From Rhodotorula mucilaginosa (taxonomy: Eukaryota > Basidiomycota > Microbotryomycetes > Sporidiobolales > Sporidiobolaceae), in NCBI GenBank assembly GCA_034406715.1, contig CP137866.1, positions 1,426,001 through 1,490,000 of the forward strand: DNA of 64,000 nt, written 5' to 3'. The translations under genes were made by a program, and so were the position numbers. Positions 4,114 to 56,396 of this stretch are shown here, in pieces; position 1 is the stretch's first letter; every line of letters begins with the position of its first letter. The notes below the pieces were generated by a model. The model searched no databases. It was not told where the DNA came from and saw only the letters and a list, made by a program, of their open reading frames with translations.

Positions 4114-4121
4114 TCCGCGGA
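4114..4121. promoter_or_regulatory. PDRE-like palindrome TCCGCGGA, upstream of P1
   Basis: Exact palindrome within CGGGATGTCCGCGGAG, 75 bp upstream of the P1 start codon. The same 16-base context recurs before P2. It matches the core bound by Pdr1/Pdr3 in Saccharomyces. Function here is inferred from its recurrence before related genes. Confidence 0.7.
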
Positions 4122-4195
4122 GCGAGCTAGAGCCGCTTTCATTATTCGGTGCTGGCTTTCTCTTCTCTTCATAACACTAAGATTCCGGCACTGCC

Positions 4196-5794
4196 ATGAC
4201 TCAAGGCAATGATGAAGCAGCTGCAGAGCTGAGGCGCTGCCTTGGCGAGCTGGACAAACGCATTCGAGCTGAGAAGGTGATTGTGTCAGCTCGCAACGAA
4301 CATAACCACAGAAAGAATTGGGGCCCTCAAACCGACATCTGGACGCTTTCCGCTGTAGAGCGGTCACTTCAGCACCAAGTCGAGCTTGACCGGGTGAGTC
4401 GGTGAATTGATTTGGCTGCTCCAGCTGGATTTGCATGCTGATTATGCCCGAGTTTTGCAGTACCTCCTACTGAAGGCTGAAATGGTGGCAGAGGAGGTCA
4501 AAGACAACGAAGAGGAGGAGAAAATTCACCTGAAGCCTCGGCAGCGCAATAGATCCGCAACGGAAGACACAGAAGACAAAAAAGAAAACCCCCTGAAGCG
4601 TGTGGAATATGTTCCAGTCACAGTGAACGAGGTAAGTCAAAGTAGCTGCGTATTGGTCAAGGCAGCAGGCAGTCTAAGATGTACTTTGTGCAGGTGCGGG
4701 AAGAAGAAGAGCGTCTCAGACATTGGGTTGCTGGCCTCTCTACGTTCAAATTGCACAACAAGGTTTTTTGTGTTGTGTTTTTTTAGAAGTGCGGGCAAAA
4801 CATCAAATTCTGACAGCCGGTACTATGCACAGGTTCTTCAGCTTGGACTGCACGGTGTCAGTTGATTTTTTTTCGTGCTGGCCTTTTGCATAAGCATAAG
4901 CATTCACTCACGTCTTGCTTTTGACAGTCTAAATCACGTGCAGTGTACTGGTGCCTTTATGTCACAGTTGGTTTTAAAAATAGCATCCCGGACCACAAGC
5001 TGGTAAGTACCCTTGGCTTGTGCAGACCACAGGTTGATCCTTGATGCACAGCCTGACTTGTTGAACTGATGGTGATAAGCAACCCATAGCGGAATTTCTA
5101 CGTGCAGACACTCAAAATCCTTGAACGCCGCAAAAATCAAGCTGAGAGAAATCGTCTGCCAAGAATGGACTTGAAACGCTATGACAAGCGATACTGCAAT
5201 CTGGTCTACGTATGTCTCTTTCTTTTGCTTCCACAGCTGCAGACATACATCAGCCTAACAGTCAATTTGGCGGACTCAGGCTCTTGTTGCTGCGCATCAA
5301 GCAGCTTCCTTGGTCGGCATTGTTTGCAATGATTGGAACGAGGTTTGTTTCCCTGCAAGCAGCGAGTGTCAACAACCAAAAACACTGACACGGGTTGATT
5401 TGGACAGCCACCAGACTATCCTGCATGTCACTTCCTGCCTTCTCCTCCTTTGACAACAATGCCATCTGGAGCTATTCCTCAGTTCAGTTTCTCCGGTCCT
5501 TCCCCTTCACCATCCCCTCGTCTTGCTCCCTCTACACCACTTTGTGATCTTCTAGATCAGCACCACCTTCCAGATCTTCTTCCTGCCGATGGCACCATCA
5601 CCTGGGACCAGCACTTCGACCAGCGCAAAACGTCCGCTGGTAGCAGCCAGCAAGGGGACGCAGCCGCTGTTCCAGGCGCGTTTGTGCCTCAAGCACGGAG
5701 GGACTCTCAAGCACAAAGGGACTTGTTGCCGTGCTCGCCTCGCACAAGCAGGATCACACCTGTCTGCGATGACTTGGCAAAGCTTAGTCTCTAG
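4196..5794 (+). CDS. Family P member 1, unknown protein (8 exons, 360 aa)
   Basis: Not recognised as a known family. Exons: 4196-4393, 4461-4631, 4694-4762, 4833-4856, 4928-5002, 5108-5203, 5280-5342, 5408-5794. Every exon is a multiple of three and every intron is phase 0 with GT-AG ends; the sum is 1083 nt. Exon-by-exon similarity to P3 supports the model: a 69-nt exon of the type V..E...L..W...LS, a 24-nt exon ending LHG, a 75-nt exon with SRAVYWCLYVTVG, a 21-residue exon ending NDWNE, and a Ser/Pro-rich last exon. No signal peptide or membrane segment is evident; the product looks soluble and highly charged in its middle (runs of E and K). Start chosen as the first ATG after the upstream palindrome. 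A few exon borders could shift. Confidence 0.65.
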
Positions 5795-6246
5795 TGCTTT
5801 GTATGCAGTCTGTATTTAGCTTCTGTTTCTGCATGCGTGAAGTGCTTGCAAGCGCGAGATGGAGATCGGCAAGGAAAGCATATTACCCTGGACACTGTGC
5901 GAGTAGAATGATTTCGGCAAGGAAGAATCGATGCTGGCACAATTGATGCCTACAACTGCCGAGGGACAAGATTAGACCATGCCAATCTACAGATACCACG
6001 TTTGACCAAGATAAACAGAAGAGGGAAAGGGGCAAGGGCAAAGGACAAGGGGAAGTCAGGGAAGCGGACTCGGCGAAAAGCTGAGAAGGCCATCATCAAG
6101 TTCGCGAAACACTCAACCGTCAAAGCGTAGACCACAGGCTCTGACAGCCGGGCGCATCACGCCCCGATTGCCTCCCAGTTAGGTGTGTCTGGACAAGCTG
6201 ACTTCTGCAGCGATATCCGAATTGACACGGTCCTCCTCTCGGGATG
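5795..6246. other. Spacer between P1 and P2, no gene supported
   Basis: No exon matching the family or any known motif. A lysine/glycine-rich open stretch near 6005-6110 on the plus strand could be a relic but cannot be supported. Confidence 0.4.
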
Positions 6247-6254
6247 TCCGCGGA
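6247..6254. promoter_or_regulatory. PDRE-like palindrome TCCGCGGA, upstream of P2
   Basis: Exact copy in the same extended context as the site before P1 (CGGGATGTCCGCGGAG). It lies about 110 bp upstream of the first P2-like coding sequence. Confidence 0.7.
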
Positions 6255-6365
6255 GGGGCAAAAGTGCAAAGTTCTCCCTGCGCGATGTGCGGGTCTGCTC
6301 CCGCCCATAGGAGACCTCCTTGCGCTTGTGGGACCAAACACTGTGCGCAGCTTCCCAGCAAGCAC

Positions 6366-7501
6366 CATGTAGACACGCATCCTGGCAAAGGCTGCCTCCA
6401 AACGCATCCTCAAAGAGCTGAAAGCGCGCATCAGAGACAAGAAGAAAAAGGTTGAGCTGGAACCACGCAATGGGCGCTGGACATTTGCAGCTGTACAAGA
6501 AGCATCAAGCGCCGCGTGGAGCTTGATCGGGTATGTCCAAACACTTCTGCACGGTCTCAACCAAAGCCGCCATTACGTGCTGACAGCGACGGCCGAAAAA
6601 GCTCCTCCTGTTAAGGCTGAATTTCGATGCGACATGAACAAGCTTCTTGCGACGGAACCTGCATTATCAGTAGCGAATGTAGACAGGGATTGTGTCTCCT
6701 TTGCTCACATGCTGAGAGCGAGCTGACTTGTCCGCACATGCAGGTGGACAAGGAGAAAGAAAAGCTTGAAGACGAGATTGCCGAGTATTCCCCTAGTCAT
6801 CTCCATGACAAGGTGAGTCAGGTGTGGAATACCCGTGCTGCTAGTTCACTGATGTGTGTCTCCTGGTGTTGCAGGTCGACGGATGGTACAATCGTCCGTG
6901 GGATTCCGAGCACCGACGGGGACGGCATTACGTGAGTGATTTGTGGGCCAGGCCAGCCACCCTTCCTCACTAGTTCTACTTCAACCAGGAACTCAACCGT
7001 AACTACTGGGCTCTCTACGCCACAATTGGGAATTTCACAGATGGAGACCTCTCGAACGCGCAGCTTGTGAGATGGCTGCAGACGCGAGCAATCAAGTCCT
7101 TGTGCTGAGAACTCTCCGGACTTGCAGAACACATTTCTAGCAGTTTTTAGGGACTACCTAGGCTGGAACAACTGGTATTGCCATGGGGACTGGAGAGTGA
7201 GTCCCGCTGTTACCCGGAATTGCGACATGCCGAGCTTGAGCTGACGGGGGAAACACCATGTCCATAGGAGAAACCAGCCATAAAGAGGGCTCACGCGATT
7301 ACAAGTGAGGTGATAAGGAAAGAGAACCTCCCCTCCGGAAAATGGGGTGAGGTAAGCTTCTCTGATTAGCCGCAGCCGGAAATTCACAAGATGCTCATGG
7401 TCTGTTTGCAGCCGCAGCCGGAGCGTGATCCTTATATGCCTGGAGTACGACAACAGGGAGTGAGGCCTTGGGGCAGACGCAATGGCTACACACCTCTTTG
7501 A
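6366..7501 (+). CDS. Family P member 2, unknown protein; 5' part probably damaged
   Basis: The 3' exons are clear homologs of P1 and P3: 6744-6812 (VDKEKEKLEDEIAEYSP), 6875-6931, 6989-7066 (NYWALYATIG, matching YWCLYVTVG in P1), 7128-7196 (ending GDWR), 7268-7351 and 7412-7501 with stop. All are multiples of three, with phase-0 GT-AG introns. Upstream, 6366-6531 resembles the first exon of P1 (ELKARIRDKKKK, then WTFAAVQ), but the ATG at 6366 is followed at once by a stop in that frame. The 5' end is therefore either spliced differently or broken. Function unknown. A functional gene with an unrecognised first exon and a recent pseudogene are both possible. Confidence 0.5.
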
Positions 7502-8353: not shown

Positions 8354-8361
8354 TCCGCGGA
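8354..8361. promoter_or_regulatory. PDRE-like palindrome TCCGCGGA, upstream of P3
   Basis: Exact palindrome within GCGGATCCGCGGATGC, 118 bp upstream of the P3 start codon. The flanking bases differ from the P1/P2 sites, so only the core is shared. Confidence 0.65.
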
Positions 8362-8479
8362 TGCGCCGCCGAAGAGAGGGGAGAGGAAATAGCCGAAACT
8401 TGGCTCGACTCCACGGCAGAGAGACCATGCAGACACCTCACTGCTCGATATATGACACTGGCTGTCGCGCTCGACCGCA

Positions 8480-10329
8480 ATGTCGGCCCCGGAGCGCCCA
8501 CAAGCTGCAGCGGCGCAGCTCGCCAAAGACTTTTCAAAGACGGTCGTGAGTTGTCGCCTGATGACTCGACCCCGCCCTTGCTTGGACCCGCGCTGACAGG
8601 CTTGCTTGTAGGGAGCGAAAGTCGAGGAGCGTCTTCGCGAGCTCGAAACCTGCAAAGAGTTGCCGAGGGACGATGCAAAGCTGGTACGTGCGCGCAATCC
8701 AATCGTCGCTCTACAGCATGCTTACTCACCGCCCGTTCACTGCAGTGGAACTTGATGCTGGAAGTAAGTCTTCATTGCTGTGCAGACTATGTCCCGCATG
8801 CTAACCCGCGCGCGGAGAGTCTACCAGTTACCTACGAAGCGGCTTCAAAAGACCGAATCCCTCTCGTGGTCTTACTACGAGCCTTTGCTCCGAGGCCTCC
8901 TGGACGAGCACGCGGTCAATTTCCAGGCGGAAGACGAAGAAACGGCACGAGCTGCGCAATGGGTGAGCCATCAGCGAATCGCTAAAATCGAGGGACTCCT
9001 TGCAACCGCTGTGAGTCTTCCACCGTCAATACGCCTACCTTCTCTCACAGCAGAGATATTGACTGTGAGCGATGCGCGGCCCAGAATTATAAATTAGTCC
9101 TCGCCGAGCTCGATGAGCAGATCCAGCTCGAGCGCGAAGAAGCGGAGCTCGCGTTGTCGGGTCCGTGGAACTTGCATGCGATGCAAGATGCTTTCGACCA
9201 CCAGTACGATCGTGATCGGGTCAGTCAGTCTTGCTCTTCCCAAAGAGGAGTAGATCGGATGCTGACACGGCGCTGCTCACTGACAGTTTTTGCTGCGAAA
9301 GTGCACGCTCCGCAAGGAATTCAAAAAAGGCTTTTGCGCTTCTGCACACGCCGTGCAGTCTCGTCTCTCCCCGCCTGTGCTTCACCCTCGCTGTACATGC
9401 TGAAACGCATGGATCGATGCAGGTCCAAGAGCTGAATAAGAGCATCGAAGACTTTGTCGCAAAGCTCAGTCCGCTCGAATTGTTCAACTCGGTCAGTCTA
9501 CTACCATCCCTTCGCATGATTTCCGAGTGCACTTGAGCTGCTTGCTGACGACTTGCAATGACAGGTATGCGAGTACGACCTGCATGATGTGAGTGCGAGT
9601 TTGCGGTGTTTTCGAGGTGAGAGTCGCTGACCCGGCTCTTCCCGCTAGGAGAAATCGCGCGCCGCCTACTGGACCGTTTACGTTCTGCTCGGCGCCTTCT
9701 CGCAGCTTCGTCCTGCGGAAAGCCAGCTGGTACGAGCATTTCATCCCCGCCAGCTCGGGCATTCGTGTGTGGTGACCAGTCTTCTCTGTTTGCAGCCTGT
9801 TCTCGCCGCGCGAATCAAGGAAGCTTTCGAGCGCAAGGCTCCTTCGAACCTAACCGCGGTATGGCCCTTGCTTACTTGCTGCTCTTGTGATGGGCATCAC
9901 GGCGCTTTAGGGTAGCGCGCAGACTGATCCATTCCCGCGTTCGCAGGCGTATCTCGTTCTGATCAACCTCGCGGAACAGATGCACATCCCACGAGGCGAA
10001 TGGCACGATGTGAGTCAAGCAAGTAGCCGCATTACATCACCAGTTGAAGCTGACGCCGGCCGACTTCGCCATAGCCTGTTCCTGCCTCGCTCAGCATTCG
10101 TGAGGCGGACCTGCTGCACCCTCGATCCCGCTCCAGGTCCATCTCGCACTCCGTTTCACAGTTTTCGCAGGTCGGACCCTCGGAGGTTCGCGGCCGTCGC
10201 GACCTCGTCGAACGCAGGAAATCGTCTGGCAACCCGCTTGCGCGGGGCGCTTGGAAATGGCACACGGCTTGGCGTTCTCGTCCGAACTCGTACTCCCCTC
10301 CGCAGTCGCCCAACGGAACCCTTCGGTAG
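8480..10329 (+). CDS. Family P member 3, unknown protein (13 exons, 362 aa)
   Basis: Not recognised. Exons: 8480-8545, 8612-8683, 8746-8763, 8828-9010, 9085-9219, 9287-9352, 9423-9491, 9565-9588, 9649-9729, 9796-9858, 9947-10009, 10044-10099, 10137-10329. The sum is 1089 nt. The first eleven exons are each a multiple of three; only the last intron (37 nt) breaks the phase-0 rule. Marker exons parallel P1: LDEQIQLE in 9085-9219, V.EL...I..F...LSP (69 nt), VCEYDLHD (24 nt), SRAAYWTVYVLLG, and a 21-residue exon ending GEWHD. The exon at 8828-9010 matches P4 (SHQRIAKIEG versus RHQRIKYIES). The last exon is Ser-rich and basic. No targeting signal seen. The close match in total length to P1 despite low identity argues that this is a real gene. 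Confidence 0.66.
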
Positions 10330-10607
10330 CTTCAATTCCGCCGCACTCCTCCCGCCTATGTGTAAATCCCTCCTTGTGCATGACTCTCATGTGCGATTCC
10401 GACGACTTGTTTCCGGCTGCTTGTGCGCGCCGCCTGGTTTCGCTCGGCCGCGGGGCGGATCGATTGCCAACTCTTCGGCGGTAACGTTACCCGACCGAGC
10501 GCCCCCTCAGCTCTCGGTAAACCGCCTCAACATGCTCCGAAGCTGTCGCTGGGTCGGCGGTTCCACCGCCGCCCTCCACGCCCTCGCGCTCGCACCCCCT
10601 CGGCTTG

Positions 10608-10615
10608 TCCGCGGA
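10608..10615. promoter_or_regulatory. PDRE-like palindrome TCCGCGGA, upstream of P4
   Basis: Core within CGGCTTGTCCGCGGATCG, 150 bp upstream of the P4 start. The 13-base block GCTTGTCCGCGGA is the same as that found before most family M and N genes 25-45 kb away, which lie on the other strand. Confidence 0.72.
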
Positions 10616-10764
10616 TCGATCCGCTTCTCTTTCCCCGTTCAGCCTTGACGCCTCCCACGAGGCTGGTGCAGTCTGTTCACTCTTGCCTTCGCAAACAACC
10701 TGCCCTCACAAACTCTGAACCCGCTCCCTCCCGCTCGCGAGCACGAGACGTATCCGCCAAACGA

Positions 10765-12772
10765 ATGTCGTCGCCCTATGTGCCCAGCGCGGCCGGCCTC
10801 CGCTACAGACGCGTGCGTGCAGCATCGATTTGTCGCGAGCTGAATGGCTTACTGACCTGCATTCGAGACAACAGGGCTGGTCCAGCGTGTTCCGCTCTCG
10901 GAAAGACCAACTGCCACTGCCTCCTCGACCCAAGGACGTCGACGGCTACCACGCAAAGCTTTATGTGCGCTATTGACCTGGCGCCTAATCCTGTGATTTC
11001 CGCTAACGATTACTGTGCGCACAGATCAAGACCGGAAAGCAAAACCGTCCCGATGCTCGTCGCGAACTCCACGCCAATTACGCACATGAAGTTGCCAAGA
11101 GAATGGAAATGGCAGACGTGTGTCTTGAGATCGAGTACACCTTTAGCTCCACAGCTGACCCTGATGACCACACAGGCGCAGTACCTCGAACACCTCGCCG
11201 ATGACTCGGCAACGCACTGGGTCCGCGGGCAACCGGAAGAATCAGCAGACGAAGAATTGAAACGATTCCGCGGCGTGCTGAACCAAGACTACTGCGCTCT
11301 ATTCCGTCCTCGTCTCGACGCCTTCTTTGACATGCGACTGCCGATGGACGAGGACAAGCGCAACAGCGAGGACAAGGTACTCTCTGAAAGCGAATACAGC
11401 CTCTTCGTCGAGGAACGCCATCAAAGAATCAAGTACATCGAGTCTGCTGTTGCCGTCGCTGTAAGCTGGAAGAATCGTGGCCTTCAAAGAATGGTTGGGG
11501 CTCATGTCGTGGAGGAGACTGATGCTTGCCGCGTCGTCAGTGGTGCCGGTTCCAGCTGGAAGACCTCCAACACCGCATGAAGCTCAACACTGACTATTGC
11601 GACACGATCTGGAGGCTCCATAAGAAATTGCGACAACCCAAAGATGTGGCAGATGTGGCAAAGGCAGCTCGGGGATTCCTCGAGTGCGAGAGGGAGCTGG
11701 ACTACGTAGGCATCCTTTTCCGCCCGCGTTCCCTACAAACACTGACAAGACCTGGAACAGTGCCTGCTGCTTGAAGCGCACTTCAAGGAACGCATTACGA
11801 GGCTAGAGCAGACTCACAGCTTGCAGTGGCCGCTTAATCAGGTCAGTGCAGCACATGCAGCTTTTCGCAATCTCTCGCACAAACAACAACTTCCACCACA
11901 GGCGAAAATGGCGTACAAGGACAGCAAGAAGCAGTCCGCAGACGCTGATAAAGCAGTACGCTCCACGGCTGCATTCCATCGGACTGTAAGAGCCTCTTTT
12001 CCCCGTTCCGACGCTGCGCGAAGACATTGCTAAAAACATTGTCGCCACCCCGAAAGGTTGCCGCTCGGACGCGTGGCGGTTCAGAACAGCCAGAGAGTGC
12101 GCACTTGCGGACCAAAGTAGGTCAGACTAAACACTTTGACTGCCTACAACGAGCTAACGCTGCGTGTGTGAAAAGGTCCAAGAGACGGGTTTCTGGGTTG
12201 CCTGGGCCCTTTCCAACCCCGCTTCGACCCACTCGTATGGCGATAACTGGCTCGAGGTGTGTGACCCATCTTCCCTTTCGGCGGTGACCTGCTGACAAGG
12301 GCCATTGAAACATCTCGCAGGAGCTCGCAAAATTCCTCAAAAAAGCCCGGACGCAAGGGCTGCTCGAAGCGAGGCCCGTAAGCTCTCTCTTTTCTCTGTG
12401 TTCCTCATGTAAAGGTGTTGAGCCTAATTCTGGAGATCACCGAACGCAGACACTTTCGTTGCTGAATGAATACAGCGCTCTCAAACCCTTTTTCGAAGGT
12501 CGGAAGGCGGAGGTCGGGGACTGGGTGGTGCGTGACCGCGCGTACTTTCTTTTCAGCGTGCAGGCTTTCGCGGCCACTGACTCTCTGTTCCGCACATGCA
12601 GCTGCGACCACGCCGCAGTCTCTCCCAGATCTCGATCACGGGAGGTCCTGACATGGGCACACTTTTCGAGCCCGGTAATGGTGACAATCTGTCCGGAACA
12701 ACGCCGACGGCGCCTTCCGCCAGGAGATCCGCCAGCACGTCCTCCAGCACACCACATGGCGCTGTGTCCTGA
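10765..12772 (+). CDS. Family P member 4, unknown protein (12 exons, 430 aa)
   Basis: Not recognised. Exons: 10765-10812, 10875-10964, 11025-11117, 11176-11460, 11541-11705, 11761-11841, 11902-11985, 12055-12114, 12176-12256, 12321-12377, 12450-12527, 12602-12772. All twelve are multiples of three and all introns are phase 0; the sum is 1293 nt with an open frame. The long exon 4 matches P3 (acidic LPMDEDK region, then RHQRIKYIES). Exon 9 (ETGFWVAWALSN) corresponds to the YW..Y exon of the other members, and exon 11 ends GDWV like the GEWH/NDWN exons. The last exon is Ser/Thr-rich. It is the longest and most diverged member. It is convergent with the PPS1-like gene, 403 bp away. Confidence 0.63.
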
Positions 12773-32544: not shown

Positions 32545-32698
32545 CATGACGGTTTACCGAGTTGATGCCGGGAGGAAGCTATGGAGACCGCGCAAGCGGC
32601 TAGCCAGCGACAAAGATCAGTAAGAGAGAGACGGAGGGAAAGACTGAAAGCTTGGCTATGCGCCGCGAGCTCTTGCGGACGAACAAGTCAGCGGCTTC

Positions 32699-32706
32699 TC
32701 CGCGGA
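32699..32706. promoter_or_regulatory. PDRE-like palindrome TCCGCGGA, upstream of M1
   Basis: Plus-strand context GCGGCTTCTCCGCGGACC, one base different from the GCGGCTTGTCCGCGGA block used before other members. It is 155 bp upstream of the M1 start. Confidence 0.65.
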
Positions 32707-34198: not shown

Positions 34199-35312
34199 CT
34201 ACTTGTGTGCACCAATCCTGCCTTGTATGCCATAGATGATGCGCTGCCAGGGCGAGAGATGGGCAGCTCCGAGAGACTGTGCGCCATGGGAAGGCGGACT
34301 TGGGGGAGGCAGTTGTTCCGGCCTCCCAAGCCCGCGCAGGTGGTAGTCGGATTCCCTATTGACAACTCCATGCCAAGGAGGATTCAGTGTTTTTAGGCGT
34401 GGCAGACCTGCAGTGTGTTCCGGCTGGACTTGTGCTATGGTCAGAGACTGGGGGGATCACCCTGATGGAGGGTGGGCCTTGCAAACGAGCAGGGCCGCCG
34501 AGAGGCATAGGCACGTACAATGTTGAGCGGAGCCAGCTGTGCTTCAGCAGGTTTGTGAACCTGTCAAGGCAGAAGAGCATCTCTCAGTCCTTTTTGTGAC
34601 TAATTGTGGATGAGACTCGGAAGATAAAAAAGCTCACCTAAAAGGGTGTGAGCCATTTGTGAGGGGAAGTTGGCAGCAGAGGGGCAAGGGTCAGTGCAAG
34701 GTCAGGGTGAAGAGACAAGTCAGTAAGGGTGTCAAGCTCCATGCCTACTCCATCACGTACAACAGGCCACTTGAGATGAGGAGGCAGCTGGGCTTGAACC
34801 TCATCGGACGTCTGATCGTGTGGCACACCGCGTACTGATCAGCACTTGTGCTTGGTCCCACTCAGATGTAGATCACCTACAAGCATGTTCAAGGGTCTCC
34901 ACCATGCTGTGGACCTTTCCTGTAGCACGAGGGGTCAGTGGAGCTGCTCGGGTTCTCCTGTTACAGCGCGGGAAAAAGAGAGACGAACAAAGATCTCGAG
35001 CGCTTCTTGTTGAGTGTGTTGTAATCGTCCTCCAGGAATTGGAGAAATCTTCTCTAAATCCTTCCATACGTCACTGATCCCTCTCCCGAAGGCGCTCTTG
35101 ACACCGTGCTCCCAGCCGGCATAGCATTCCTTGCTGGCAACTGCAACTGCTGCAAACCAAGCAATCACCACACCGTGCCCTCTTATTTCAAGTTTGCTCA
35201 GGGCCTTATCGATATTCTTGAGGCAGATGCGCGCAAGTTGTGAAAGGTCCGAGCCAAAGTCTAGGTCGCCGAGCGTAAAAGTCGTTGACGGGTGGTAGTT
35301 GCCGCTGGGCAT
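34199..35312 (-). CDS. Family M member 2, unknown protein
   Basis: Exon 1 is 35312-34989 (324 nt), with FTLGDLDFG, VVIAWFAAVAVASKE and FGRGISDVWKDLE. Exon 2 is 34919-34881 (39 nt). Short exons follow that encode LPPHLKWPV and AEAQLAPLNI. The last exon contains HGAQSLGAAHLSPWQRIIYG and ends HK with TAG. Introns 1 to 3 are phase 0; the border of the last exon is uncertain because the favoured acceptor does not keep the phase. The start ATG lies in CCAGAATGCC, a context shared by M2, M5 and M6. Soluble, unknown function. Confidence 0.55.
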
Positions 35313-35464
35313 TCTGGCTGTGGGGCGAGCCAGACGCTTGCAGCGGGTCAAGGTTGCTGCTGAGCAGGAACAGAACCTTGCAAGTGGCTAGCTAGTCCCA
35401 GAAGAAGAAGGAGAAGGGAGGGAAAGAACCCCAAAGCTGGACCACGCCGGCCAGGAGGGGCTCT

Positions 35465-35472
35465 TCCGCGGA
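35465..35472. promoter_or_regulatory. PDRE-like palindrome TCCGCGGA, upstream of M2 (proximal)
   Basis: First of two exact copies 16 bp apart (start to start), 153 bp upstream of the M2 start. M2 is the only gene here with a doubled site. Confidence 0.7.
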
Positions 35473-35480
35473 CCGGCTTG

Positions 35481-35488
35481 TCCGCGGA
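35481..35488. promoter_or_regulatory. PDRE-like palindrome TCCGCGGA, upstream of M2 (distal)
   Basis: Second copy, within CGGCTTGTCCGCGGACC, 169 bp upstream of the M2 start. Confidence 0.7.
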
Positions 35489-41900: not shown

Positions 41901-44215
41901 GCCACGCCTCGGCCGACGCGAGCCAGGTCTCGCGCTTCCGGTAGTCGTACACGCCGGTCCATGCCGACGGCGGCTTGGGCTTGTGTCGGCTGCCGAGGTC
42001 GTTGAAGACGACGGGCAGGGCGACGGGCTTCGGAGAAGTGGCGAGCGCTGGACGAGCGGGCAAGTCGCGCGAGATGCGCTGCTGGAAGTCGAGAGCGCGG
42101 CGATGCTCCTCGAGCTGCTCCTGGAGGTTGCGAATCTGACGAGCCATGTCCTGACCGACCTCGTCGTCGGCCTGCGCGTCGCCCTCCTCCCACTTCGCTC
42201 CGTCGCCGAGACGCGATTCAGCGTCCTTGGCGCGCAGTCCCGCGGACTCCGTCTCCCATCGGCGCCGTTCCTTGTCCTCAAAGTCGTCGAGTAGCTGCTG
42301 GCGACGACGGGCCGAGTCCAGCTGGAAACGGGCAGTCGCATCTTCGCGGCGCTGAAACGAGGCGATTGAGAGCGAGACTGACGGGGCTGCCGGCTGGGAG
42401 TGGCGAGAGGGAAGGGGAGCGAAAGGCGAGGTCCGCTGAGTGGGAAGCGGAATTGTCGATTGGACCGGCTGACCGAGTCCGGCGTTCGGCAGGGGAACAG
42501 GCTCGGAGGGTGGAACCGGGAAGTTGTTGACCGCGAGAGGCGGCGCGGCCAAAGACGCTCCGATCGCTTGACGGTCCGGGTGAGGGTGCTCCGGGACATC
42601 GTCAAAGTCGATGAGGTTGGCGGCGGCGTGGGCGCTCATGCTGGGGCTGTTCGACATGTCGGTGCCGGGAGGAAGTGGGGCCGACGGCGAACGTGGAGGC
42701 GGTGAGAGCTGGCGCTGGGCTCGAGTGCGACGAGCTGTCGACTGGACGAGGGTATCGAGATCGCCAAGAGTGTGGGGAGGTTCCTGATGCGCGAGTCGGA
42801 GAGACCGGCGCTGGAATGAGAAGTTGAGGGACGGCGGACCGAGTCGACGCTGGGAGGAGGCGTCGGAGTCGTCCGAAGAAGTCGTGAGCGAGGGGAGCTC
42901 CGACGATTCCGGTCGGGAGGAGATCGACCGTGGATGGGAAGATGGTGCAGATTGTTGAGAAATGGTGGAAAGTCGGAATGCTCGACTGTCAAAAAAGTGC
43001 AAGGCGTACCGTCCGCGAGGAAGCAGGATGCCTCGAGACGGACGACTCGCGCGAAGGTAGACTTGTAGCTCGTATCTCCAGTCACAAGAGACAGTGAATC
43101 AAGCTTTGTATTCCAATCAGAGAGTGGAAGTGACCTGGAGAAGAGAAGAAGGAAAAGAAGAAGTCGAACAAACATCTACAAGTCCAGACGCCGGAGTTGA
43201 GTGAAGAGGCTCGAGCGGCGTAGGCGGTGCAGACTCATCCTCCAAAACTGAAAACCGGTTCGTCGATATGACGGAGGCAAGTCCGATTCGCCCTGCTTGT
43301 GTGCAGGGCGAAGAAGGTGAAGTCGAAGTTGGAGTCGGAGTGAAAGGCGAACGGCTAACAGGTCACTTAACTTAGCTGATGATGTCTCCTTGATGCAGAC
43401 ACGTACAGGATCCAACGGGGCCAGCTATGCTTCCGTTACAGTTTGAGCCTGTAGACAGAGCAAGTGTGCACGTGAGTACTTCTTGCAATTGTACTCAATA
43501 AAGACTCGGGAAAAGCTCACCAAAAAAGGTTCGAACCGTTCGAGTGATATTGGCGGTAGCAAGAAGCGAGAAGCAAGGCAGCAGGGGCAAAGAGTGTGTC
43601 AGCATGAGTATGCAGAACGCATACTTGATCACGCACAACAGAATCGTCGGGTAGCTTGAGATCAGGAGGCAGCTGCACCCTTCTCTGTCAACATGGAAAC
43701 ACGGTCAGCAGCGTTGTAACATGTGACTGCAGCATGCAACTCTTTGAGCATAGTAAGATCTAGAGCACCTACAACCACGCATAGAAATCCATAGGGACCT
43801 GTGGAATAGACCTGTGACACGCAAATCAGTGAGGCTTCTTGCTCTTTGTCTATGTGCTGCATGGAGAAGGGCGTACAAGACTACGGATTGCCGTGGCTTG
43901 CGCTGCTTGCAATGACTGGTTCAGGCGGCCAAGGCTTTGCTGTAGATCATCCCACACAACTGTGAGTCCTCTCGTCAAGACGCCCTTTTGTTGCCCGGAC
44001 CAGGCGGGGTAGTACGTCTTGCTGACAAAGGCCATGATTGCGAACCAAGACTTGACAACCTCGAAATTTTGAGCCTCGATTTGGTGCAGAGCTTGAGCAA
44101 TGTCTGTGAGGAGTTTTCGTGCAGCTAGGGTGAGCTGCGGGCCAAAGTCCAGGTCACCGAGCACAAATGGCCGGCCCTCCTTCCAATCCTGTTCATACTT
44201 CGGCACTCTGGCCAT
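35990..44215 (-). CDS. Family M member 3, split by a gypsy element in its last intron
   Basis: 5' part: exon 1 is 44215-43877 (339 nt; FVLGDLDFG, VVKSWFAIMAFVSKTYY), followed by a 39-nt exon 2, an exon encoding LPPDLKLPDDSV, and an exon ending at 43407 before a GTACGT donor. 3' part: last exon 36256-35990 (267 nt, the same length as in M6), with HGAQSLGAVHLSSRQRLIYG. The 7082-bp element sits between them, 46 nt after the donor and 22 nt before the acceptor; the native intron would have been 63 nt. The fourth exon may not be open in the family frame, so the gene may already be inactive. Function unknown. Confidence 0.5.
36274..36278. repeat. Target site duplication GGTCA, left
   Basis: Five bases directly outside the left LTR, identical to 43361-43365. 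Five bp is typical for Ty3/gypsy integration. Confidence 0.9.
36279..36641 (-). repeat. LTR of the gypsy element (3' LTR, 363 bp)
   Basis: Starts TG and ends CA on the plus strand. Identical by eye to 42998-43360. Confidence 0.95.
36398..40840 (-). CDS. Gypsy Pol polyprotein with chromodomain
   Basis: Part of the element, about 1480 residues. Visible parts in order: aspartic protease (ALIDSGSQ), reverse transcriptase (FYDDILVYS), RNase H, integrase with a zinc-binding N-terminus and catalytic core (SDRDPKFTG), then a chromodomain (YRVRWLGYSAAEDSW). Chromodomains of this group can guide integration to heterochromatin. The open region runs into the downstream LTR. Confidence 0.93.
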   Translation of the reverse strand: MCPCAELIALAISEGRQAPTVEELFEFLSTRASPPDLPDVALAAKSLSAQPSALEAKPSTPLTSLPAAAGLAAVSADSSSASPNSNRRKDLTSCPQVPTTRSYAEAAKSSSSATPKISPKPLTVPAIFGMQESARALIDSGSQADCLSPELVARLGVEVSRLLAPVHADLAADRLSTRLSLVASADIRVGPISLEGRRFFVLPLPPGVDALLGTPWMRDTGTAVSAQSLFVAPTGPCESIYDFAHERFAEQPVQNLAALGFTDEPMTDADFRNLVLCAMAADLPAQEVVDLVESVGLEPRNPLLDIDEDDPSQPDLSEAEAKEAVDALLERFSDVFVDKLPGLPPFRPVNHHIPLVDASKPIRAHAIRMPDRYKEQFRAHTRAFVSHGFWSPASVDSACAMFAVPKHDKSQARFVINLKPRNLNTKKFSTPLPDMMEVRNRLAAHRFRSKIDFKQAYEQIRIEEDSVPFSGFVTPNGTFVSRVMQQGDSNAPETMHRVCEMMFREVLGRFLDAFYDDILVYSQTRKAHLRYLEIIFTTLRHYRFFVSRSKVDIMAPRLEALGAIVDDEGVHVAEDKISKIRKWPVPKNPHDILRFLGFLQWMRDHIPRLNEIAACLTDLTKKGAQWVWTAQRQFAFETLRASVPDTLTPLDLPKLQSGEERLYLFTDASIFGCGGWLGQGPDAESVRPFRYFSAKFNSAQRNYTTTDQELLGVLNGCKKMHEHLVGWHFVVRCDHEPLKTYWEQPPKQTRRSTRTWEQLAEYDFEWSFIPGKVNMAADALSRLAEFEEARAELADAEEPTPALDDPAPFASELTDRARLCMAACRIAALEEEGDPLASVEPGPQVRSFPFSLAPLAATDLGASLNGFSDSFLTELRKATAADSLGAKILADPSAFPAYSVVDSLVFLDGTDSLRLLVPAGRVSKAPDAATFYEAFIDHSHRALGHLGLEKTLDYVRTRFWWRNVVDHVTSFVKGCEPCSRGKSSTAKPFGLLHPLSTPTRPWSKIGMDFVVGLPIVSSGGKAIDSILSVTCYLSKMVVLIPLSSMATAADVAGLFLDSVYRRFGLPDAIVSDRDPKFTGAFWRALHARLGIRLKMSTSAHPQTDGRAEATNKVVGQILRVMCEDSPDSWLDVLPLCEFGINSAKASSTTLAPFDVIHGFTPHALPSLVSKPDAAASFSERARLNSLRASDAIIASRIAMTHEANKHRRPENDRFEVGAKAYISTSGLRMPKGIASKFVPRYIGPYTITATVPATSSYTFSLPPHLKIHPTFHASRLRPHFPNDDEIFPARSLSEPLSVVPAVDGAEEEFEIERIIEERTRRNKKEYRVRWLGYSAAEDSWRPEAELRETAPEALREFKELKKIRGRRVGIAPLSKSPFSTSLPSVVPLSDFPTASSRGGSVSRSPFTPTPTSTSPSSPCTQAGRIGLASVISTNRFSVLEDESAPPTPLEPLHSTPASGLVDVCSTSSFPSSLLQVTSTL
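40933..43002 (-). CDS. Gypsy Gag protein
   Basis: Part of the element, about 690 residues. It has a Gag core region and one C-terminal zinc knuckle (CYNCGKKGTHISTAC). It is a separate open region upstream of Pol. The exact start codon is uncertain; it lies just inside the upstream LTR boundary. Confidence 0.9.
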   Translation of the reverse strand: MHFFDSRAFRLSTISQQSAPSSHPRSISSRPESSELPSLTTSSDDSDASSQRRLGPPSLNFSFQRRSLRLAHQEPPHTLGDLDTLVQSTARRTRAQRQLSPPPRSPSAPLPPGTDMSNSPSMSAHAAANLIDFDDVPEHPHPDRQAIGASLAAPPLAVNNFPVPPSEPVPLPNAGLGQPVQSTIPLPTQRTSPFAPLPSRHSQPAAPSVSLSIASFQRREDATARFQLDSARRRQQLLDDFEDKERRRWETESAGLRAKDAESRLGDGAKWEEGDAQADDEVGQDMARQIRNLQEQLEEHRRALDFQQRISRDLPARPALATSPKPVALPVVFNDLGSRHKPKPPSAWTGVYDYRKRETWLASAEAWLASLGLKPNDPVDRLHTPSAYYAIRGLLSDVEPTGGISPQAWFDARERHRPIASAADFVAAIREHWVDDQAAQRSFDRYRLAKQNNQTTRDFATQVAALADAVLTHSVPDADRIGVFLGGLRSNVASFVRNNIAMLAVQGITTPSFEQVVRVAVVADTIPEYQSRSSTSTSTRSSAPAPATSASSSSRRNGVDNARSSERSDSSSTAANLDAWRERAAKWQAEHPTSKRADWHKPDANPARNPLLCYNCGKKGTHISTACPHARVTPSTVVAAVSLPSGKSAASLAKASPAGPEAAKGETMTVASATITELSSKESEKASDE
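42998..43360 (-). repeat. LTR of the gypsy element (5' LTR, 363 bp)
   Basis: Identical by eye to 36279-36641; it is the upstream LTR in the element's orientation. Confidence 0.95.
43361..43365. repeat. Target site duplication GGTCA, right
   Basis: Matches 36274-36278 directly outside the other LTR. Confidence 0.9.
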
Positions 44216-44362
44216 TGAGCCAGTAGGACCACTGCGGCGGGTCAAGATCAGTCCGGGGCAGGAGTTGCGGGATCTCACGTGCTAGCTAGTCCCGGAAGGA
44301 AGAGAAGGAGGGAAAGAGCCCCAAGTTGGAAGCTGGACCAACGCGCCGGCACGAGCGGCTTG

Positions 44363-44370
44363 TCCGCGGA
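44363..44370. promoter_or_regulatory. PDRE-like palindrome TCCGCGGA, upstream of M3
   Basis: Context GCGGCTTGTCCGCGGAG, 148 bp upstream of the M3 start. A CTAGCTAG palindrome lies between them at 44282-44289. Confidence 0.72.
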
Positions 44371-45545: not shown

Positions 45546-46735
45546 TTACTTTGGCGTGCCTGTCCCGCCTCGTTTACCGTAGATGACGCGCTGGCGGTGC
45601 GAGAGATGGAGGACAGCTCCGAGAGACTGTGCTCCGTGGGGATGCTGCCGGAGACTCGTGAGTGCTGCAGCAGCCTCAGCTCGCTGCTTTAGCTGCTCCT
45701 GCCACTCCTGCCACTCATTCTCCTCCTCCTCATTCAGCTGCTGTTGCTCCTGCTTCTTGTTCAGGTGAACATGGGCTGCATCTGCAGGATGCTCACCAAT
45801 GTGGAGAGGTTCCAACTGGGGTAGATGGTAGAAGCCCTCAGGTTTTGGCGACTGAAGTAGGGTAGTGGATCAGAATTAATCCGGTGATTGGCTGTGACTG
45901 GCAGCCCTCATAGACACCAAAACACGGAAGGCGCAGGGACGCATGCGATTGATCGGAGCCCGCTGTGCCGCAGCAGGAACATGATCCTGTCAGAGAGCAA
46001 GAGCGTCTCTCAATACTTTCTCTGGTTGATAATGGGAGACTCGGAAGACGGCAGCTCACCCACAGGTTGTGAGCCGTTTATAACGTGATGTTGGCAGCAG
46101 AGGGATAATGGTCAGGAGAAAGAGATAAATCAGTAAGGTTGTGAAGCCCCATGCATACTCCAACCGCACAGCCAACACGCACAGATGGCCACTGTAGATG
46201 AGTAGGCAACCGCTCCTGAACCTCCTCCGACAACTAACCGCGCCCCGCAACATGTAAAGTGATCAGCACAAGTTGCGGTCAATCACACTCAGATTCAGAT
46301 CACATACAAGCATGCTCAAGAATTTCTGAGACGCTGTGGAACTTTCCTGTAGCACGCGCGGTCAGTTCTGTTGGTTTCTCCTGTTACGGCACGGAGAAAA
46401 GAGGGACGAACAAAGGTCTTGAGGGCTTCTTGTTGAGCGCGTTGCAGCTGATCCTCGGGAATCGGGACATTCTCTTCTAGTTCGCTCCATACATCACTGA
46501 TCCCTCTCCCAAAGGCGCTCTTGTCACCGCGGTCCCAGCCGAGATAGTATTCCTTGCTGACAAGCGCAACTGCTGCAAACCAAGCAGTCACCATACTAGA
46601 CTCTTTCATGCCAAGTTCGCGTGTAGCCTGGTCGATGTTGCTGATGCAGGCGCGGGCAGACGGTGTGAGGTGCAAGCCAAAGTCCAGGTTGTCGAGCTTG
46701 AAAGGCCTGTGTGCCCGAACATTGCCGCGAGGCAT
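45546..46735 (-). CDS. Family M member 5, unknown protein
   Basis: Exon 1 is 46735-46412 (324 nt; FKLDNLDFG, MVTAWFAAVALVSKEYY, FGRGISDVWSELE), ending at a GTTCGT donor. A 39-nt exon 2 follows (46348-46310), then exons encoding LPTHLQWPS and AAAQRAPIN. The last exon is 45851-45546 (306 nt), with a Gln/Glu-rich helix, then HGAQSLGAVLHLSHRQRVIYG and stop. Introns are phase 0, but the donor after AAAQRAPIN is not a normal GT site, so one intron is uncertain. It is closest to M2 in exon lengths and 3' flank. No targeting signal. Confidence 0.55.
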
Positions 46736-46908
46736 TCTGGACTCTGGGGCAAGCGAGAAAGATGGAGCGGGTCGAGGCTGGTGCCAGGCAGGGAATCGGA
46801 CCTCGCGAGTGGCTAGCTAGCCCTGGCAAGAAAAGGCAGAGGGAAGGAGAAGAAAGCCAAGCTGGACCGTGTCCGGACGGCCTCAGCTCGCGGAGGATAA
46901 GCGGCTTG

Positions 46909-46916
46909 TCCGCGGA
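46909..46916. promoter_or_regulatory. PDRE-like palindrome TCCGCGGA, upstream of M5
   Basis: Context GCGGCTTGTCCGCGGAC, 174 bp upstream of the M5 start. CTAGCTAG at 46813-46820 lies between. Confidence 0.72.
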
Positions 46917-47518: not shown

Positions 47519-48622
47519 CTACTTGGTGACATGGCCAAACCCATAGCGTTGATTGTAAATGACACGCTGCCGTTGCGAGAGATGGACAGCTCCGGGAGAT
47601 GCTGCTTCAAAAGGATGAGGACTAGCAGAGTGGTGCGCGGCAGCCTCAACTTGCTGCCGCGCCGCCGCCCGCGCTTGCTCCGCCTCCTTGTTCAGGTGAT
47701 CGTGGGCCGGTGCATCTCCAGGATGTCGGAGACCCACAAGAGGGTGCAGTTGGAGTAGATGTGGAAATCCTTCATGTTGTCGCAACTGAAGGATGAGTGT
47801 TCTGGTCAGAAAACGGTGGTCTGCTGTATTGAAAACAAAAGCTGAGAAAGAAAGGGGGTTAACGGGTACGCACCGGGTCAATTGCACGCAGCTCGGGAGG
47901 ATTGGTCTCGAGGTGTGGATGGGGTCTGAAGACATCTCTGTTCACAAATTCTGCGATAGACGGGAGTGCGATTTGGTCTTGGAGAAAATGACGCGGTGGC
48001 TGACTCAGGTGTGGGACAGAGAGTGAATCAGTATGGGATGTGCTCTCTTGTTTAAGTGCTTCTTACACACCGGAGGTTCAGGCAGCGCAACATCATCAGG
48101 CAGTTGCACTTGCCTCTGTCAATTCGACAAGGAAAGAAAAAAAAGCATCGGTCGTCAATTGTTCTCGGGTGCTTTGGCTCCAGATCACTTACAACAACGG
48201 CCAAGGGATGTCCTTTTGTCGTAGAATGCGCCTGTAGCAAGCAATGTTATCTATGCCTCTCGAGATCCTTTGTGGGTGAACAGAAAGGTACGCACAAGAA
48301 CGGTGATGGCGGCAGTCGGGTCATCCGAGCCTGTGGGCAGCTCGGTCACGACACGACTAAGCCCTTTCCCGAACTTTACCCTCTCTGCGGTGCCCCATCC
48401 GGAGTAGTATGTCCTGCTGACATAAGCCATTGCCTTGAGCCATCGGACCACAGTGTCGTCTTGCTCAATGCCGAGGTCGCGGATGACGGTGGCAATCCAG
48501 GTGAGGCTCTTTTCTGCGGGGTCACTGAGGTCCGTGCCAAAGTCCAAGCCGCAGAGCTCAAAGTGCGGACGAGTGCGGGGGTTGCTCCTCCCGTCTTGTC
48601 CGTTGAGGCGGCGACGGGGCAT
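47519..48622 (-). CDS. Family M member 6, unknown protein
   Basis: Exon 1 is 48622-48296 (327 nt; FELCGLDFG, VVRWLKAMAYVSRTYY, FGKGLSRVVTEL), followed by a strong GTGCGT donor. Exon 2 is 48231-48193 (39 nt, AHSTTKGHPLAVV). Short exons follow that encode LPDDVALPEPP and PPELRAIDP. The last exon is 47785-47519 (267 nt), with LRQHEGF, an Ala/Gln-rich helix, PGAVHLSQRQRVIY and stop in the AAGTAG context. Introns appear phase 0; the exact acceptor of the fourth exon is unresolved. It is divergent from COG2 and shares about 650 bp of upstream DNA with it. Confidence 0.55.
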
Positions 48623-48809
48623 TCTGGCCTGAGCTGAGCGATTAAGGAGATGAGTTGCTGCAGCAGGGTTGACGCAGGTACGTGGCAAAGGCAGGGAGCG
48701 TCCGCAAGTGCCGGCTTGCTAGCTGGTGTATGGGAAGAAGGAGAACAGAGAGGGACGTTGTACGGTCCACGCTGAAACCCGCGCCGGGGCCTCTCCCTGT
48801 ACCGGCTTG

Positions 48810-48817
48810 TCCGCGGA
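48810..48817. promoter_or_regulatory. PDRE-like palindrome TCCGCGGA between M6 and COG2
   Basis: Context CCGGCTTGTCCGCGGAGAG, 188 bp upstream of the M6 start and about 460 bp upstream of COG2. A TATATA string lies at 48822-48827. Confidence 0.72.
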
Positions 48818-49277
48818 GAGCTATATAGGGAACCGTGGGGGACCGGGGAAGCGCGCACCGCGCCACGTATAGCTTGGCGCTTGGCCACACAGCCGCGAGC
48901 TCACATCCATACACGAGCACAGCTGCTGTAGCCGCGCCTGAGTCTTGTCGAAGGAGATGGCAACGTCGAGGCGCATGACAAACGGGTAGCTCTTCGGTTC
49001 AAGCTTGGCACGAAAGTAGCGCTGTACAGTTGCTTTTGGCTGCCGGGAATCCAGCCTGGGTCGAGTCCGACGATTCCATGTGAAGTGCAGGAGAGAGCGA
49101 GAAAGTCGTGTCTTTTCATCGTCGTTGACGTCGACCCAGCGCAAACCACATAGAGACCAAGGGCAGTACGCTTGAGCAAGACGAAGTTCTCCTAGACCTG
49201 CTCGAGCCCGTCCAACCAGGCAAACGCCCCGACGTCTCTCCCCACCTGGGCCCGAGACGTGTGAAGTGGACGCGACG

Positions 49278-52964: not shown

Positions 52965-53314
52965 TAGTAGCAGTTGCGGTTGTGCTGCTGGAAGTGTCGC
53001 AGTTTGCGAAGATTGAGGTGCCCATCGCGCGAGGAGAATATCCTAAGGAGGAGACGTCGCAGACCGCCCGCGCGGCAAGCTATCCCGCCCCGAGAGCACC
53101 TTAAAAGCTGGGGCTACTGTGTTACATGCTATACGAGACTGCGCGACTACAACTACACCCAACGCTCGAAAGACCTGTTGAGAAGGCCGAAAGATCGTTC
53201 GTCTTTGATCCCTGCGTCGGTCCAGCCGAAAAGAGGAGCTTGACCCAAGCTGTACAGAGGAGACACTGAATTTTCAAGGGTGATAACTGGCCTAATCCCG
53301 CAATCCGGATCGCG
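52965..53314. other. Convergent intergenic region
   Basis: Lies between the stop codons of COG2 (plus) and N1 (minus). No gene seen. Confidence 0.5.
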
Positions 53315-54525
53315 TTACTCCTGTGAAGTGCGCGCGTGAGGCTCGCAAGCTGCACGCCTGTTAACTGAATTCTGCAAGGACAGGACCTGATCCTGGGGAT
53401 TCCTAAGGTTGTATGCCTTGACCGCGGAATCTTGGACCCGCAAGAACACTTGTGACCATTGGTGCACAGCCGCTGGGGATGAGCAAGGTACGGAGATCTG
53501 ATGAAGGAGGTACTCTTGGTCAGAACTCGAGCTCATAAAAAGGTGGCAGCTACGCCGCTTTACCCCAGATTGCACAAGGATATTGGCCGGCAGACCCTTA
53601 GCCTGCAAAAGAAGACAATGAGCAGGGGATCACAGGATGAGCACACAGGTTAAGGTATGGAGCGTGGCACGCACCAAGAGATAGTCGATACCGGCCGCTT
53701 GAGGACGAGGTGAATGGAACAATAAGTATCGAGCCACATGTGCCCATGCTGAATCCTCTTGCCTGTACATATTGTCAAGAAGAAGAAGCAATGTCATCTT
53801 GAATTGTCTTTGCTGCGTGGGGTCCGGCCGGCCTTGAAGCTCAACGACGAGCCTCGCGCAGACGGTTAACCACTCTTCAAACGCGGACTTGTATGATTGA
53901 GATAGGCGAAGGTTGTGAAGGCGCGAACGAGCAAACGATTGAATGCCAATTAAGAGTTGCACAGGGGTGAGGGTGGTGTTGCGCGGAGGATGAGTGCCGT
54001 TCTCAGTTTCGCGGCGGGCATCATATGACAGCTCGTCCTTCACATGTTTGCCCGTGGTCAGACAGAGCTTTGACATGTGAAGAAAATTGTGACCCACAAA
54101 ATCTCTGACAATACTGTACGGATTCTCCAGAACGCCGAGCTGTCGGGAGGTTCGTGAGTCGACCTGAGAGCTTGAACGAGACTACATCCCGGCGGGACTG
54201 TACTCACTGGATAGTGAGCGTCGGGACGGTCTCTGACAGCATAAGTGCCCCTGTGGTGATTGAGGTCCTCGAGCAAGTGCTCGAAATGCGGGCGAGCCCA
54301 GTCCAGGCTTGCGAGGTCGGTGAATCGGGTCGAAATGACATGCCCCGTGATGGCGAGCCAACCCTGGGCGTAGTCTCGTTGATTTGTCAAATCTTCGGCC
54401 TTGCGTGCGCACCTTTCGATGACATTGAAGAGTTTAACCCTCTCTTGGAGGTACCTCAGGTTGTTGGGTGCAGAAACACGGAACAAGCCCGTCGGGGGCA
54501 GCGCCGGGGGAAGCTGTTGCGACAT
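53315..54525 (-). CDS. Family N member 1, unknown protein (3 exons, 364 aa)
   Basis: Not recognised. Exons 54525-54208 (318 nt), 54163-53675 (489 nt) and 53602-53315 (288 nt) sum to 1095 nt; all are multiples of three with phase-0 introns. Segments shared with N2: ERVKLFNVIERCARKA, STRFTDLAS, LENPYSIV, LLLLDNMYRQED, AKGLPANI, and the C-terminal block from QWSQVFLRVQ through NPQDQVLSLQ to RRAACEP. It is helical and soluble-looking, with no signal peptide. Its length is close to P1 and P3 (360 and 362), although sequence similarity to P is not evident. Exon 1 has a loose pattern similarity to family M exon 1 (W..A..H.IS..F), too weak to claim homology. Confidence 0.63.
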
Positions 54526-54663
54526 GTCAAGCGAGCCCGGGAGGCAGGACGCTGACAAGGAATGAGCAGAACAGCCGAGGTAAAATAATGCTTTTCTGTG
54601 GAGCGTCAGGAGCATAGCGTGCTAAGCAACGGACGGCGATGAGCTCGGGCAGCGAGCGGCTTG

Positions 54664-54671
54664 TCCGCGGA
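54664..54671. promoter_or_regulatory. PDRE-like palindrome TCCGCGGA, upstream of N1
   Basis: Context GCGGCTTGTCCGCGGAG, 139 bp upstream of the N1 start; identical over 17 bases to the M3 site. Confidence 0.72.
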
Positions 54672-55048
54672 GATGCTTGCACTCGTGCCGATTCTGGGGC
54701 CTGAGGCCCGGGCGTTTCGGCTACGTACAGTCTGGGCTGGGCAGTATGTGAGAGAATTTCGCTCTCTGACGCAAAAGCCCGTCCGAGCGCAGCAGCAATT
54801 CGGACGACGATCGGCGAGCCTTACAACATCCGCAGTTCCGCAGGACAATGCAGAAGAGAGCGGAAGAATCCATCGCGAATATAGCGCACGCGGGGTCAGA
54901 ACTCTGCAGAATTCTTCTGGAGGGTTTTCTGGACTCGTGGAGGAGAGATGGACGTTTAAAACCAGGAAGGAGATTTCCGCAATTTGTCCCTGGCTCTCAA
55001 TGTCAATCTCTGTGAGATACATAGCCAGAGCAGGTCAACGATCTTTCA
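54672..55048. other. Spacer between N1 promoter and N2 3' end, no gene supported
   Basis: Nothing recognised on either strand. Confidence 0.45.
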
Positions 55049-56278
55049 TCAGACTACGTCTCTTTGTATCACAATACGCAGAGGATCAGTCAGTATGCAC
55101 GGCTCGCAAGCCTCACGTCTCTCCTCGATGGACGAAACTTGGTCGTGAGGATGTCTCTGGTTGTAAGCCTCGACGGCTTTGTGCTGGACGTGCAGAAAAT
55201 TTGGCGACCACTCGAAGGAAGCGCGCGAGGTTTCAGCTGACGGTGGAAGCTGCCATTTTGGGTGTCGAATCAGCAATTGTTCGGCAAGCTGAGAGACCGT
55301 TTTGCAACGCAGCCCCAGGACTTACGCCTGCTTGTTGAATAACTTCCTGAGGTAAACCCCTAGCCTGCAGTTTGATTATATCGATTTAGCGTCGGGGTCA
55401 AAGGCAGCGGGTAGCAACAGAATCAACGCACAAAGAGGAAATCAACGCCAGGCGACGAAGAGTGGTAAGTTGGCACCCATGTTTGGTCCTCCTCCTCGTA
55501 CAGATTGTCAAGGAGAGAAAAGAGAGCACGCAGGTATTGAGCCCGTTGCTTGCTATCAAGGTCGGGCTCGTAATCGCACACGGTGTAGCGTGTGTACAGA
55601 GTCCATTCCTCCAAGGCTGCTTCCCATGCCGTGCTCGAAGAGGAGGACAATAACCCGCCAAGGCAAGCTCGGACATAGCCTTGAATTGTCTCAATGACGT
55701 CTTCGGGCGTGATGTGTGCCGGAATCTTGACAGGAGCGAGCGTGGGTTCGCCGTGATGCTGGTTGTGAAACCGGTCCTGCGCGAGTGACCATCGACGTCA
55801 GTACCCATGCATACACCGTGACTATGGGAAGCATACATATAGGCTCGCGATGGTATAAGGATTCTCAAGCAGTTGCACCTGCAAAGATGTGAGAGAGAGC
55901 AAAGGTCTAGCGCGTCACCCTTGCGATTGGATCCCATGATGGCAAAACGGCAGAGACTGACGGGATAGAGGCGAGGCAAAGCCTGCTTCTCGGCACAAGT
56001 TGGAGTGTGATGCTTCGTCTGCTCAAGCACCATTAAAAGTGCCGGCGCGCCGAGAGGACACTTGCGAGACTCGTGAATCTCGTTCTGAGCAGGTGGAGCA
56101 TGACGGCGCGCCAGCACACGCCGTACGCTGGTTCGTCGGAGCGCCCCACGGCCCTACGAATGCACTCGTCGACGAGTTGGACGAGTTGCACTTTCGTTTC
56201 GGCGACGACTTGGCGCTCCTCGAGCTGTTCTTGCGTCGACGCATCGTTTGATGGATTCCGAGGGGTACGCTGCGGCAT
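55049..56278 (-). CDS. Family N member 2, unknown protein, possibly damaged
   Basis: Paralog of N1 along its length. The first exon from 56278 carries KVQLVQLVDECIRRA and TRFTSLAS. Then come LLENPYTI, a block with LFSLLDNLYEEEDQ and GVDFLF (matching LLLLDNMYRQED and GIDYLL), an exon ARGLPQEVIQQAG, and a last exon ending at 55049 with HKAVEAYNQRHPHDQVSS. It has more introns than N1, and those that can be placed are phase 0 (for example after LYP, LLENPYTIASLY, DFLF and QQAG). Within the first exon the N1-like reading does not stay in one frame, so the copy may be broken or have an unrecognised small intron. Divergent from SNF8. Confidence 0.52.
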
Positions 56279-56388
56279 AGCTACGCGTTCGTACGGCTGC
56301 GCCCGGGAGCGGTCGAACTGCTTCGTTGGCGACAAAGCCAAAGGAAGGGCCGGTAAGAGAGATTGAGCACAGGCACGGCACCCGCTTG

Positions 56389-56396
56389 TCCGCGGA
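56389..56396. promoter_or_regulatory. PDRE-like palindrome TCCGCGGA between N2 and SNF8
   Basis: Context CCGCTTGTCCGCGGAGTCC, 111 bp upstream of the N2 start and about 395 bp upstream of SNF8. Confidence 0.7.

Follow-up and report, generated by a model that had tools for sequence, protein, structure and literature searches.

A 14-bp promoter word as the predicted site of one regulator of a dispersed, orphan-rich gene set in Rhodotorula mucilaginosa

The 64,000-nucleotide stretch of Rhodotorula mucilaginosa DNA analyzed here (the window; C3:1426001-1490000 in a genome of 20,350,292 bases and 19 contigs) carries copies of an asymmetric 14-bp word, CGGCTTGTCCGCGG, mostly followed by A, shortly before the start codons of accessory genes. 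Judging from its sequence and distribution, the word is probably bound by a single sequence-specific regulator, which would control a dispersed regulon rich in orphan genes. An earlier note on the window had reported the 8-bp palindrome TCCGCGGA before eleven unrelated-looking accessory genes, and had proposed a common regulator on the model of the Pdr1/Pdr3 pleiotropic drug response element (PDRE) of Saccharomyces. Common cis-regulation is supported and reaches far beyond the window; the Pdr1/Pdr3 identity is not supported. No description of the element was found in the titles and abstracts of open-licence papers.

Placement and extent of the element

All 12 positions listed for TCCGCGGA in the earlier note are exact, and the further copy inside the copia element is present, at position 1725 rather than 1735. 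The window thus holds 13 exact copies, against 2.19 expected by dinucleotide shuffling (100 shuffles, maximum 8). The raw count is not decisive, because other palindromes are almost as frequent in the window (CGTCGACG 11 copies, CGAGCTCG 10, CGGCGCCG 10) and the genome has 779 copies of TCCGCGGA, about 2.45 per 64 kb, with 346 for the backward control. It is the placement before starts that makes the observation real. The core lies within 300 bp upstream of 11 of 11 accessory starts (P4196, P6367, P8480, P10765, five M and two N) and of 0 of 14 other predicted starts, as called by a purpose-made gene finder working without RNA evidence, three of the 14 lying in retroelements. The gap between element and ATG is 74-180 bp in the window, which agrees with the 75-190 bp given before.

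The palindrome is not the conserved unit. That unit is asymmetric and about 15 bp long (15-16 bp overall, with sharp edges), and comprises the 14 bp of CGGCTTGTCCGCGG, in which a left arm, CGGnnTG, is conserved beside the core; the arm reads CGGCTTG in six exact copies of the window and CGGGATG in two. The final A of the palindrome is preferred and not required, being the next base after 82 of the 94 exact CGGCTTGTCCGCGG sites on contigs C1-C10 and replaced by another base after 12. Alignment of 55 distinct sites, whose 14 inner positions are fixed by the selection of the sites, gives C at -1 in 53, a leaning to T or C at -2 and to C or G at +14, and information at background beyond about 16 bp. 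The background level of the flanks indicates a sharply bounded word of about 15-16 bp and not a repeat. A dispersed repeat was likewise ruled out by the flanks of the 55 sites, which are without homology; the site precedes unrelated genes and is not embedded in a longer repeat, as is expected of a regulon.

Throughout the genome the word is in large excess. There are 131 exact copies of CGGCTTGTCCGCGG, 67 of them forward and 64 reverse, whereas the same pattern read backward occurs once; for CGGNNTGTCCGCGG and its backward reading the counts are 240 and four. This is an enrichment of the kind that a cis-element shared by a regulon should have. With up to one mismatch, GGCTTGTCCGCGGA has 225 copies, against nine in the control. 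The window holds six exact copies, against 0.41 expected per 64 kb. On C1-C10 the 94 exact sites form clusters: 27 pairs of neighbours lie 0.5-12 kb apart, where 6.5 would be expected (maximum of 5000 random sets, 16). The sites are also biased toward contig ends, 45 lying within 200 kb of an end against 25.6 expected (random maximum 42). Excluding the window and a regular tandem on C4 still left 21 pairs and 39 of 85 sites near ends. In that tandem, which resembles a regular tandem duplication, exact elements at C4:520631, 525323 and 530015 are spaced exactly 4692 bases apart. In a set of 74 element contexts (L077-L081, L023, L055, L019, L027, L035) the companion words GCGCACGCGC, GCACCGCCAC and GCTCGGGCC are more frequent than expected; the signal is weak, and paralogy is part of its cause.

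For 46 starts chosen by judgement among open reading frames near an element, the median gap to the ATG is 104 bp (quartiles 82.5-123, range 62-211), and the element has the orientation of the gene in 15 and the opposite one in 31. A position linked to a TATA box was rejected, TATA-like hits being too few (8 around the 46 sites). In the five aligned M promoters, which have diverged but are visibly homologous, the sole long near-invariant block consists of TCCGCGGA and AAGCCG, separated by a single variable base. Between the element and the ATG, M promoters have a second, shorter conserved block that is GCTAGCTAG-like or GCTAGC-like (35393, 44290, 46816).

Genes behind the element and promoters read blind

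The window genes behind the element are unrelated between families and related within them, since the M genes, the N genes and three P genes are paralogs. Given this paralogy and the homology of the M promoters, the eleven copies cannot be counted as independent events. P10765 has no similarity to the other P genes detectable by blastp. Other tandem orphan families with the element are E on C10, T on C4, K on C7, B on C8 and C5, and G on C2 and C12.

The promoter enrichment check proposed in the earlier note was run in part, as the contrast of starts within the window and as a blind reading of promoters. Protein searches of the genome, each starting from a single member of M, E, T, K, B or G, yielded 39 hits, of which a few weak ones may be false at the E limits used (up to 1 for M, up to 0.1 for the others). 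Eleven family members, whose promoters had not been seen beforehand and none of which stood on the lists of exact sites, formed the blind set. In nine of the 11 the element is present with no more than two mismatches: none in L101, one in L097, L099 and L107, and two in L098, L100, L102, L105 and L106. L105 is altered within the core, and L102 and L107 are each altered at the G of the arm. This threshold is reached by 13 of 2570 random stretches lacking TCCGCGGA and by 2 of 2200 shuffles of the tested stretches; over all 2828 stretches 223 reach it, because most loci were taken around the word. Among the judged hits as a whole 31 of 33 have the element (M 5/5, E 4/4, T 5/5, K 4/4, B 10/12, G 3/3), a tally that includes the six queries chosen for the element, several other members first met through it, weak hits with E up to 0.07 and some promoters judged by site coordinates; the promoter of six of the 39 (two B, three K and one G) was unread.

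No significant Pfam match was obtained for 16 orphan proteins or exons, of which six come from the window, and 3 of 10 conventional-looking genes behind the element passed the Pfam cut-off (GH18, a Tle1-like hydrolase and an M16 peptidase). Profile comparison by hhalign of 15 orphan groups, mostly first-exon reads of one to five sequences from which deep homology could escape, found 104 of 105 pairs unrelated, the related pair being L090 and L089. A single hidden protein superfamily behind the shared site was rejected on this result. A rough hydropathy measure, applied to 32 sequences, revealed no hydrophobic N-terminus resembling a signal peptide (the highest mean over 12 residues was 1.18), and M and P have no significant match among solved structures (best E 0.16 and 0.82). 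Among public proteins, M has one relative, P four and E four; the named ones are three P relatives, all from Rhodotorula.

The M search of the genome returned five places, all inside the window. The P8480 search returned its own gene and two weak matches; at one of these, C3:1423346 (E 0.4), an element of the CGGGATG type stands 162 bp upstream. The search missed the other P genes of the window, so searches with one sequence undercount families.

The predicted regulator and competing explanations

In the proposed mechanism, one sequence-specific DNA-binding regulator would recognise CGGCTTGTCCGCGG, usually followed by A, and act in either orientation from the proximal promoter, about 60-210 bp upstream of the ATG. 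Its regulon would comprise roughly 130-240 dispersed sites, rich in tandem-duplicated, species-restricted orphans and including some conventional genes. Within a family the site would have been passed down together with the promoter; between families it would have been independently gained or kept, as the proteins are not detectably related. A double-strand DNA-binding protein would be the simplest reader, since the word is short, sharply bounded, bidirectional and close to start codons. Protein binding, co-expression of the genes and the direction of the effect are what we infer from the DNA.

Several observations weigh against this account. The mixed orientation fits a general promoter factor equally well. 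Two of the 11 blind members are without the element (L103 with four mismatches, L104 with five), three unread family members (C8:378867, C8:269953, C11:262806) have no nearby exact copy in the genome list, and P8480 in the window has the core only. The backward-pattern control behind the genome counts does not preserve dinucleotides. The left arm is absent from most of the 779 copies of TCCGCGGA, and this analysis covers the copies that have it. The GH18, M16 peptidase and Tle1-like hydrolase genes carry the element, so it is not a mark of orphans only.

The main rival is a general promoter or boundary factor. Reb1, Rap1 and Abf1 are abundant promoter factors, and a protein of this class might keep these promoters nucleosome-free, constitutively and with no specific regulon. 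A long and nearly fixed word, used in both orientations at a narrow distance from the ATG and carried by conventional genes among others, would suit such a factor. We consider it rather unlikely, as the element is absent at all 14 other predicted starts of the window and its strong copies number only about 130-240 genome-wide and are clustered. The clustering, together with the excess near contig ends, could instead point to a silencing or islanding element through which a repressor or heterochromatin is drawn to accessory islands; the closeness of the word to individual ATGs and its presence before conventional genes resemble ordinary promoter use, and make this explanation improbable. Least credible of all is the absence of any regulation, the word having spread with duplicated promoters or a transposable element. 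Promoter sequence is common to paralogs and one copy lies flush against a gypsy long terminal repeat (LTR), but the flanks of the 55 sites lack homology and the orphan groups are mutually unrelated, which already strains such an account.

A PDRE bound by a Pdr1/Pdr3-like protein is very improbable as well. The 8-bp core is identical to the Saccharomyces PDRE TCCGCGGA (PMC5539612, PMC8211738), the position in the promoter is alike, and the final A is preferred. The conserved CGGnnTG left arm, however, is foreign to the PDRE, and the right end is not required. TCCGTGGA, a PDRE variant of PDR5 (PMC5539612), and TCCACGGA occur within 300 bp of none of 70 element loci, some of them overlapping; with the arm conserved and the T variant absent at all 70, the PDRE core TCCGCGGA/TCCGTGGA is not the whole conserved unit here. 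Pfam tests of 26 proteins or exons downstream of the element, which cover a small part of the sites, showed no drug-efflux domain.

As to the identity of the predicted regulator, a fungal zinc-cluster (Zn2Cys6) protein is a speculative guess, suggested by the CGG/CCG triplets of the word (CGG-N5-CCG running into CCGCGG). We know of no described site with the CGG-N5-CCGCGG arrangement. A nearly fixed word of 14 bp is long for a single zinc-cluster dimer site, which counts against the guess. Zinc-cluster sites are as a general rule built from paired CGG triplets (PMC8211738), and the word likewise includes CGG, CCG and CGG triplets.

The nearest architectural parallel is found in the wtf meiotic drivers of fission yeast, which have a FLEX motif bound by Mei4 (PMC9562144). 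There, too, the site of one regulator, predicted in our case, is common to a large, fast-evolving set of intron-containing genes. Unlike wtf, which is one family with FLEX in intron 1 for the poison transcript, the present set has many unrelated families, a site upstream of the ATG and no known killer activity. The conserved motif DRE1, which lies upstream of DAO1 in Rhodosporidium/Rhodotorula (PMC4624585), is similarly a red-yeast cis-element defined by conservation near a start, but it concerns one gene and differs in sequence.

Orphan families are usually studied singly with nothing connecting them, and a common promoter word would make many of them accessible together. It predicts co-expressed genes, could help in finding members that similarity misses and offers a bait for the regulator; if true, the account would show how genes without relatives are wired into a control network. 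A tentative extension, possible at best, is that one master regulator governs many mutually unrelated, fast-evolving orphan families, which new orphans could join by gaining one 14-bp site. Arranged in tandem, often toward chromosome ends, and without signal-peptide-like N-termini, these might be intracellular genes of a self/non-self, killer or stage-specific kind.

Features of the window

Table 1. Elements and accessory genes in the window (coordinates count from its first base)
Feature	Coordinates	Strand	Remarks
Element CGGGATGTCCGCGGA	4107..4121	+	74 bp before P4196 ATG
P4196, intron-rich orphan gene	4196..5342	+	exons traced by eye up to roughly 5342, end provisional; similar to P8480
Element CGGGATGTCCGCGGA	6240..6254	+	112 bp before ATG at 6367
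P6367, P-family gene	6367..7500	+	end approximate; start or integrity uncertain
TCCGCGGA core without normal left arm (3 mismatches)	8354..8368	-	upstream of P8480
P8480, orphan gene	8480..10329	+	348-residue match annotated in Rhodotorula sp. CCFEE 5036; R. mucilaginosa relatives
Element, exact	10601..10615	+	149 bp before P10765 ATG
P10765, orphan gene	10765..12651	+	similarity to other P genes not found
Element CGGCTTCTCCGCGGA, 1 mismatch	32692..32706	+	144 bp before M32547 ATG
M32547, first-exon region	32218..32547	-	
Second, degenerate element copy, core TCCGCGGA at 35465	35458..35472	+	
Element, exact	35474..35488	+	161 bp before M35312 ATG
M35312, first-exon region	34989..35312	-	
Element, exact	44356..44370	+	140 bp before M44215 ATG
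M44215, first-exon region	43877..44215	-	
Element, exact	46902..46916	+	166 bp before M46735 ATG
M46735, first-exon region	46412..46735	-	
Element, exact	48803..48817	+	180 bp before M48622 ATG
M48622, first-exon region	48296..48622	-	
Element, exact	54657..54671	+	131 bp before N54525 ATG
N54525, first-exon region	54208..54525	-	
Element CCGCTTGTCCGCGGA, 1 mismatch	56382..56396	+	103 bp before N56278 ATG
N56278, first-exon region	56036..56278	-	

Some gene borders in Table 1 are uncertain. The ATG of P6367 is followed immediately by TAG (6364-6380), in a context like that at 8424, so either the start lies elsewhere or the gene is broken. The public JCM8115 annotation fuses P8480-like and P10765-like sequence into one protein (P0004), which makes the borders there uncertain. 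Exon 2 of the M family, read by eye, is apparently exactly 39 bases (13 codons) in the five M genes, after a long first exon.

Conserved genes of the window encode dual-specificity phosphatase, Pil1, ankyrin, COG2, EAP30, thiolase and M1 peptidase domains. Of its two retroelements, one copia and one gypsy, the gypsy (36279-43360) has LTRs of 363 bases whose two copies do not differ, and its target duplication is the 5-base GGTCA; it is a recent insertion within the accessory cluster. Another copy of the same gypsy LTR, on C7 (L085:994-1024), lies flush against a 14-bp element; the abutment is possibly due to chance, or to integration beside a bound factor.

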